DNA from: Bacilli bacterium
Lineage (GTDB): Bacteria; Bacillota_I; Bacilli_A; RFN20; CAG-826
Assembly: GCA_024408335.1 (NCBI GenBank)
Contig: JAKSVB010000001.1
Coordinates: 1 to 64,000, forward strand
DNA length: 64,000 nucleotides
Reading direction: 5' to 3'
The notes under the pieces are model-generated. The model was not told the origin of the DNA and ran no database searches. It saw only the letters and a list, made by a program, of their open reading frames with translations. A program made the position numbers and the translations under genes. Positions within the stretch are counted from its first letter, which is position 1, and the number at the start of each line of letters is the position of its first letter. Positions 25,529 through 27,792 of this stretch are shown here, in pieces.

Positions 25529-25567
25529 GAAGTACTAAACATGAAAGAACTAATCTTTACGATTTAG

Positions 25568-25634
25568 CATTCCGTAGTGCTTGATTATGGTCAAGCGTAG
25601 AGACTTCCAACCGATTAAGGAAATATACGAAATG
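25568..25634 (-). promoter_or_regulatory. Purine riboswitch aptamer, guanine type
   Basis: The minus-strand leader of nupN matches the purine riboswitch layout. P1 is CATTTCGTA with TACGGAATG (one GU pair). P2 is TTCC/GGAA with a loop that contains GG. J2/3 is TCTCTAC, fitting the UNUCUAC core. P3 is GCTTG/CAAGC with a loop ACCATAAT whose CC can kiss the GG of loop 2. J3/1 is ACTA, putting a C at the position that reads the ligand (C74 in xpt numbering), so guanine rather than adenine is expected. P2 is short. The controlled operon imports nucleosides, which agrees. Confidence 0.85.
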
Positions 25635-25658
25635 TCGAATTAGATTTTCGACACATAG

Positions 25659-25664: not shown

Positions 25665-25923
25665 ACAAGCGATTTATGAAAAAACTACAAAATCAAATCA
25701 TTTTTTTCATGAAAACGGTTACATTTTGCAAACGTTTAAATTTTAAAACTTGAAATATTAGTCCCTCAATAATAAGAAAATCGTTCTTATAAATATTACA
25801 AATATTTATACTATGATAATTGACACTAAAAATCGATTTTGAAAGATTTCAATCGTTATTTTCAACAAACAATGAAAAAGTATGAAAATGATTTTCAACT
25901 TTAATGCAAATAATTGAATGTGC

Positions 25924-25929
25924 TACAAT
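25924..25929 (+). promoter_or_regulatory. Extended -10 promoter of the candidate small RNA
   Basis: TGCTACAAT (extended -10, hexamer TACAAT) with a weak TTTAAT -35 about 18 bases upstream. It points rightwards, 7 bases before the first hairpin of the structured RNA. Confidence 0.55.
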
Positions 25930-25935
25930 GGTGTC

Positions 25936-26040
25936 CCGCCGAAAAAGGCGGCATAAGAAAGAGAGCTTTGTCAATTACCTCTTCCACTTCAATAAGGAGG
26001 GTGGAAAAGGGTGGCCTAATTGGTAACGCCCTCTTTTTTC
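25936..26040 (+). ncRNA. Candidate structured small RNA of unknown family
   Basis: About 105 bases in the gap between the nup operon leader and pepF, with no open frame. It starts with hairpin CCGCC/GGCGG (25936-25951, loop GAAAAA). Then comes one long imperfect hairpin from 25961 to 26033: GAGAGC faces GCCCTC, TCAATTA faces TAATTGG, CCTCTTCCAC faces GTGGAAAAGG, with a 13-base apical loop. A run of six T follows at 26034. An extended -10 box stands in front. No gene follows on that strand before the pepF terminator, so it looks like an independent RNA. It lacks the GGAA-tetraloop core of SRP RNA and the central bubble and length of 6S RNA. Family unknown. Confidence 0.6.
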
Positions 26041-26044
26041 TTAT

Positions 26045-26071
26045 ATTAAAAGCCCTCTAGCGATAGAGGGC
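26045..26071 (-). terminator. Terminator of pepF
   Basis: On the minus strand GCCCTCTA pairs with TAGAGGGC across TCGC, followed by TTTTAATATAAG. It lies just after the pepF stop. Confidence 0.85.
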
Positions 26072-26076
26072 AGTGA

Positions 26077-27792
26077 TTAGAAGTTTTCTGGATGGTAACT
26101 TTTGAGGACTTTCTCAAGAGGTTTGACGGTCTTAGCAAGAACTCCGTCTTCGAATGGGACCTCTAAGCCGACTTTCTTAACAAGCTCGCAGAATGGATAT
26201 TTGCCACCAAGCTTGCAAAGCCTGATGTATTTGTTCCATGCGTTAGCGTGGGATCTGCGGTCCTTATTGAAGAATTGGAACGCGCATACCTGTGCGAGTG
26301 TGTAATCGATGTAATAGAAAGGCACTTCAAAGATATGTGATTGAGTGAGCCAGCGGTGACCTGAGAGAAGGTATTCGCAGTTCTTTTCCGCTTTGACTTT
26401 CCATGGGGTGTATTTGCATTCGATTTCATGCCATGCAGCATCTCTTTCAGCTGGAGTTGCCTCTGGGTGAGCGTATACCCAGTGTTGGAATTCGTCGACT
26501 GAAACGCCGTATGGGAGGAAGCAGATTGAGTCTGCAAGGTGGACATAACGGTATTTGTCTGGTTCATCGAAGAATAAGTCCATATATGGTTCTGCGAAGA
26601 ATTCCATGGACATTGAATGGATTTCACATGATTCAGCGGTTGGTGAACGATATGCTGGGACTTTGATCTCTCCGCCAAGGAAGCCTTGGAAAGCGTGACC
26701 AAATTCATGAGTGAGAACATCAACGTCTCCAGAGGTTCCGTTGAAGTTTGAGAAGATGATTGGTGTGCGCTTGATTGGGAAGTAGGTCATATAACCACCG
26801 CTTTGCTTGCCTGGTTTGGCATCGAGGAAGAGAAGATGGTGGTCAACCATGTAACGGAAATACTTTGATGTGTCTTCTGACATTGTGTCATACATCTTTG
26901 TTGCGGCGTTAACCTTGTCTTCGGTTGTTCCTCTAGGAGTTGGGTTTCCATTAGGGAACATGAGGTTAAGGTCATAAATCTCAGGGTTTCTGATTCCTAA
27001 GCGAGAGATTTGCTTTTTGACGATCTTGGCAGCAAGAGGAGTGACGACATCTTTGATTTGCTCATGGTATTTCTCAACCATTTCTGGATTATAGTCGAAG
27101 CGGTTCATCATGATGTAGCCAAGTTCAGTGTATGATTCAAAGCCCATCTCTTTTGCCATTTTGGTACGGACTTTGACTAACTTGTCATAAATGTCTTCGA
27201 GCTCTTCGACGTGAGTACCTAATACATCGTAGTAGACCTTTGCGGCTTCTTTTCTTGTATTGCGGTCAACGTCTTGGAGGAACTTGCCCATTTGAGGGAG
27301 GTTATATTTGTTTCCTCTAAACTCAAAGGTGATCGCAGCGATTGCAGCACCATACTTCATAGTAAGAGCGGCTTCTTCTTGTTTCATAGCGACAACCGAT
27401 TCATCGCTCTTCTTGACTGAGTAACGGTACATTTTGGTTAAGAATGTTCCGAGTTTGCTTTCGAGGTATTCAAGATATGGAGACTCTAAATAAGCCTTCA
27501 TGAACTTTTGTGATTCGATTTCGAGAAGCGGGGTTTCATTATTGACCTTTTCCATTGCCTTCTCGTATTTCTTGTTCTGGGTCTCTAAAGAGAAGAGAAC
27601 GCTGATATGGGTGATATGGTCCTCAACTGTATCTGAAAGATGGGAGAACTTTCTCCAAATACGGTATGCTTCTTCTTTGCTTGTCGCTTCTTTGAAGAGC
27701 TTTGTGAATCCCTTCATGCGTTCGCAGACATTTTTGAAGTTTGGGATCTGGAATGACCATTCTTCAAATTTTTCATCTGTCATCTTTTTCAT
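26077..27792 (-). CDS. pepF: Oligoendopeptidase F (M3 family)
   Basis: Cytoplasmic zinc endopeptidase that cuts short peptides, 571 residues. The zinc motif is HEFGH at residues 362-366 (VLTHEFGHAFQGFLGG), with the third ligand glutamate in ESCEIHSMSMEFF about 25 residues later. The fold is fully represented. AAGGAGGACAAACA gives a very strong ribosome site. The ATG overlaps the stop of the preceding RQC-domain gene by 4 bases. It processes peptides brought in by Opp and complements the M32 carboxypeptidase. Confidence 0.95.
   Translation of the reverse strand: MKKMTDEKFEEWSFQIPNFKNVCERMKGFTKLFKEATSKEEAYRIWRKFSHLSDTVEDHITHISVLFSLETQNKKYEKAMEKVNNETPLLEIESQKFMKAYLESPYLEYLESKLGTFLTKMYRYSVKKSDESVVAMKQEEAALTMKYGAAIAAITFEFRGNKYNLPQMGKFLQDVDRNTRKEAAKVYYDVLGTHVEELEDIYDKLVKVRTKMAKEMGFESYTELGYIMMNRFDYNPEMVEKYHEQIKDVVTPLAAKIVKKQISRLGIRNPEIYDLNLMFPNGNPTPRGTTEDKVNAATKMYDTMSEDTSKYFRYMVDHHLLFLDAKPGKQSGGYMTYFPIKRTPIIFSNFNGTSGDVDVLTHEFGHAFQGFLGGEIKVPAYRSPTAESCEIHSMSMEFFAEPYMDLFFDEPDKYRYVHLADSICFLPYGVSVDEFQHWVYAHPEATPAERDAAWHEIECKYTPWKVKAEKNCEYLLSGHRWLTQSHIFEVPFYYIDYTLAQVCAFQFFNKDRRSHANAWNKYIRLCKLGGKYPFCELVKKVGLEVPFEDGVLAKTVKPLEKVLKSYHPENF

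Follow-up and report, generated by a model that had tools for sequence, protein, structure and literature searches.

A putative species-restricted small-RNA gene between a nucleoside-uptake operon and pepF in an uncultured gut Bacilli species

The gap between the nucleoside-uptake (nup) operon and pepF carries on its plus strand, at 25936-26040, a compact arrangement of promoter element, hairpins and T-tract that we read as a putative small-RNA gene of about 105 nt, young, restricted to one species and forming an independent unit, a reading to which we give an even chance. A short independent plus-strand transcript is the most likely reading of the locus and its expression is, on balance, somewhat probable, while a regulatory role for the RNA appears unlikely at present. 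The main rival is a terminator or insulator hairpin devoid of regulatory function. Throughout, the window denotes the whole 64-kb stretch of DNA that was analysed.

Results

The original prediction had described a complete small-RNA gene, in which an extended -10 promoter is followed by a first GC-rich hairpin, a long hairpin and a terminal run of six T, with no gene after it on the plus strand. Each of these elements is present (Table 1), and together they support the proposed architecture, including the terminal hairpin with T-tract that is typical of independently transcribed intergenic small RNAs. The long hairpin had been put at about 73 bases of near-continuous pairing; it is real and unbranched, but it spans 85 nt and is interrupted on its 3' side, near GGUGGC, by a six-base bulge. 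Two features weigh against the small-RNA reading, namely the poor -35 region, with the TGCTACAAT site absent from the output of a simple sigma-70 promoter scan, and the T6 tract, whose bases are themselves occupied in base pairs with the A-rich 5' arm of the long hairpin.

Table 1. Coordinates of the candidate locus, its surroundings and the analogous unit in a congener
Feature	Position	Strand	Basis or remark
Perfect 7-1-7 palindrome TGAAAATGATTTTCA, possible operator	25883-25897		Just upstream of candidate promoter
Approximately 122 bp present here, missing from the gap of eight relatives	25920-26045 (approximate extent)		Gap comparison
Extended -10 promoter element TGCTACAAT	25921-25929	+	Sequence reading; -35 poor
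5' GC-rich hairpin CCGCC-GAAAAA-GGCGG, 5 bp	25936-25951	+	Folding
Long unbranched hairpin, 85 nt, 33 pairs; doubles as predicted intrinsic terminator	25955-26039	+	Folding
T6 tract, last six bases of long hairpin; inferred RNA 3' end	26034-26039	+	Sequence reading
pepF terminator hairpin, separate, facing candidate	26052-26071	-	Opposite direction to candidate
pepF (oligoendopeptidase F-like; name from the original prediction)	26077-27792	-	Convergent with candidate
Small-RNA candidate of congener G016, convergent with pepF	L012:3198-3340 (G016:C13:24811-24953)	-	Promoter and hairpins

The fold is more stable than expected from base composition and neighbouring-base effects: the folding energy has a z of -2.81 over 113 nt (1 of 200 dinucleotide shuffles as stable) and of -3.30 over 109 nt (0 of 200). 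The minus strand of the candidate folds equally well (z -3.73). Motif and hairpin scans covered 455 kb of this genome, made up of the window and 391 kb of further stretches. They returned 542 T-runs in intergenic DNA with pairing upstream of them, and among the long unbranched hairpins of this set the candidate's ranks near the top in stability; the ranking relies on a crude gene caller, such that several similarly stable hairpins look to lie inside missed coding DNA. The same T-run scan returned an orphan terminator-like structure on the minus strand at G000:C1:202908, a hairpin of 96 nt that ends in T6 and lacks a nearby upstream gene on its own strand. The TGNTAYAAT motif occurs in 11 intergenic copies in the 455 kb, eight of them within 300 bases before a same-strand gene; the candidate's copy is one of the three that have no annotated same-strand gene.

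No same-strand gene lies within 5.9 kb upstream of the T-tract hairpin, and pepF possesses a terminator of its own, so the hairpin is not required for ending an annotated gene. These two facts, the better-than-shuffle fold and the promoter-associated nature of TGNTAYAAT together make an independent plus-strand transcript the likelier outcome.

The idea that this is a new small RNA of its lineage, to be recognised by conserved and covarying stems in related genomes, found no support. Eight relatives (L004-L006, L008-L011, L140), with pepF about 81-82% identical, share the neighbourhood, a purine riboswitch and nucleoside-uptake operon followed by pepF. Taking a shared GAATATAA anchor and the pepF stop as end points, the riboswitch-to-pepF gap comes to 295-298 bp for seven relatives, 297 bp for the remaining one and 419 bp here; the excess of about 122 bp is the candidate, which is absent from the gap in all eight. 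For a ninth relative, G001, a short flank only was available, and it resembles that of the others. DNA searches of 61 genomes, and within the genus at E up to 1, yielded no homologue, the matches inspected falling inside coding sequences. Similarly, a covariance model built from the candidate alone (R1) and run on 37 genomes of the genus found no homologue in the 36 others, its matches being the candidate itself, its own reverse strand and one 33-nt match at E 0.44. Neither approach found a second copy in the candidate's own genome, and nothing similar was found in the phages, plasmids and viral contigs searched. Since no homologue turned up in the other genomes searched or in the syntenic gap, there is, as far as this is testable, no covariation to support the stems. 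Evolutionary evidence for function is thereby removed, which does not disprove the small-RNA reading, as a young RNA stays compatible with it. Either a gain here or a loss in the relatives fits the gap equally well, because different genes adjoin pepF in distant congeners.

Other elements lie nearby. The purine riboswitch (25555-25650, minus strand), which leads the BMP-lipoprotein/ABC nucleoside-uptake operon, is ordinary. Upstream of its promoter, at 25709-25722, lies TGAAAACGGTTACA, which we take to be a cre-like motif; it is fully conserved in the eight relatives although the surrounding gap has diverged, a sequence pattern that suggests CcpA-type catabolite control of the nucleoside-uptake operon. 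A further block, AGAATGTCGCTAATTAAATACTGATATATT, lies between riboswitch and pepF; it is strongly kept in the same eight genomes and diverged in the window's genome, and is perhaps a promoter or operator.

Known RNA families do not account for the candidate, and the original exclusion of SRP RNA, 6S, tmRNA and T-box stands. Rfam searches at gathering and relaxed thresholds gave no family match in the region (the best hit, at E 0.025, fell well short of gathering). A weak, non-significant match to the rli22/LhrC clan, confined to the opposite strand (E 1.7, 17.5 bits versus a gathering score of 80), is attributable to chance. SRP RNA was rejected, the genome's own being located at C1:183839-183936. 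The candidate does resemble 6S RNA (RF00013) in being short, hairpin-dominated and near the usual size range, but in this order 6S RNAs measure about 150-165 nt and carry GGUGUUGAAAGCU and GAAUCCUAA motifs, both of which are missing here. Neither RF00013 nor R2, a model built from five order-level 6S RNAs, matched the window's genome, and a divergent 6S was rejected given that R2 detects 6S in five congeners yet nothing in this genome. Those five RNAs (G026:C55:53-208, G034:C1:100722-100877, G036:C13:5771-5925, G016:C20:20888-21046 and G012:C169:9767-9914) fall below the RF00013 cut-off or are missed by RF00013; on the closest relatives of the window's genome, R2 gave no 6S match.

An analogous unit was found at the same end of pepF in the distant congener G016, whose pepF is 66% identical (Table 1). 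There, a near-consensus promoter (TTGACA-18-TATAGT; 11 of 12 matches) is followed first by one hairpin and then by a second, near-perfect one of 61 nt whose tail is rich in T (z -3.88). The unit shares no sequence with the window's candidate and is unique to G016; it is thus analogous and non-homologous. Other congeners have ordinary terminators at that end of pepF. We count the parallel in favour of the small-RNA reading; it may be coincidence, or the 3' flank of pepF may be permissive for new transcription units.

Discussion

If the locus works as its layout suggests, the extended -10 promoter would start an RNA near 25933-25937, and the product, about 105 nt long, would consist of the small 5' hairpin followed by the 85-nt hairpin, which with its T-tract would serve as an intrinsic terminator standing back to back with that of pepF, ending transcription and protecting the RNA. 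Perhaps the RNA, if expressed, is a young trans-acting antisense small RNA that pairs through exposed purine-rich loops, GAAAAA and CAAUAAGGAGG; this is a guess. Target prediction over 271 gene starts in a third of the genome gave a best value of -51.8 kcal/mol, as compared with -50.0 for the best shuffled small RNA, and thus nothing beyond shuffles. We infer transcription itself from the arrangement of the elements on the plus strand.

The main rival, which we consider a real though lesser possibility, holds that there is no small-RNA gene here and that the region is an additional terminator or insulator block of roughly symmetric build, which keeps pepF transcription from running on into the nup leader downstream and also stops stray antisense transcription, with the -10 match due to chance or giving rise to noise only. 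The equally good fold of the minus strand and the position of the hairpin directly after the pepF terminator are what such a block would look like. Moreover, all eight relatives have in their gap a terminator hairpin of the GCCCTC type flanked by runs on either side, and hairpins with a T-run frequently follow pepF in other congeners. Against this rival stand the minus-strand tail, which is no more than CTCTCTTTCTT, and the dedicated terminator that pepF already has. In addition, the promoter-like motif is rare outside gene fronts and is correctly spaced on the plus strand.

A more elaborate version of the small-RNA reading would have a regulatory gene recently born through a single insert of about 122 bp, bringing promoter, body and terminator at once and possibly controlled through the palindrome upstream, with unrelated small RNAs arising repeatedly at the pepF 3' flank in the genus (the window, G016); we hold this to be quite unlikely. 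The palindrome TGAAAATGATTTTCA resembles a Fur-type 7-1-7 operator, and this exact sequence occurs only once in the genome. A Fur-regulated small RNA of the RyhB/FsrA kind, which would share its operator with iron genes, gained no support: sites like the palindrome with up to two mismatches number 22 in the genome versus 17 in the control, and because looser matches are not enriched over the control and no regulon is visible, we make no regulon claim for it.

It is also improbable that the candidate arose by insertion of a small mobile hairpin of the MITE or REP type, which brought along a promoter. The 122-bp excess over a gap of constant length and the long near-palindromic ends (ATAAGAAA...TTTCTTAT) would suit such an element, and small RNAs are known to derive from MITEs (PMC5896051). 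Against this, the candidate is single-copy in its genome, and is therefore not a member of a MITE family; nothing of the kind was seen in plasmids, phages or viral contigs, and there is no clear target-site duplication, gain here and loss in the sister clade both fitting the gap. Finally, a short basic peptide of 32 aa from an ATG at 25928 is highly improbable: the plus-strand frame MVSRRKRRHKKESFVNYLFHFNKEGGKGWPNW is open, but it has no ribosome-binding site, its ATG overlaps the -10, and we rejected it on its codon score (-13.3; for coding windows the median is +14 and the 5% point -3.3) and on the absence of any homologue or Pfam match.

The putative small-RNA gene resembles the intergenic, independently transcribed small RNAs of bacteria in its predicted promoter, its short length, its stable 3' hairpin with T-tract and its lack of a frame under selection, and differs from them in being known from sequence alone and in one genome among those searched. 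Restriction of this sort is not unusual, as RNA-seq in Staphylococcus has revealed many small RNAs unique to one species, and species-specific small RNAs are common (PMC5343137), so the candidate would be of a known kind. The MITE-derived small RNAs CbsR3, CbsR13 and CbsR16 of Coxiella offer a second comparison: like them, the candidate is a short, hairpin-rich insert that may carry a promoter, whereas the Coxiella families run to about 50 copies (PMC5896051) and the candidate to one. On present evidence it is a plausible, fairly ordinary, species-restricted small-RNA candidate and not a new RNA class. The relatives of the source genome are rumen and gut MAGs. Should transcription be borne out, the candidate would represent a small RNA confined to a single species of uncultured gut Bacilli, from a lineage in which RNAs of this sort have received little study, and would provide a clear example of one syntenic gap gaining or losing a small-RNA gene.
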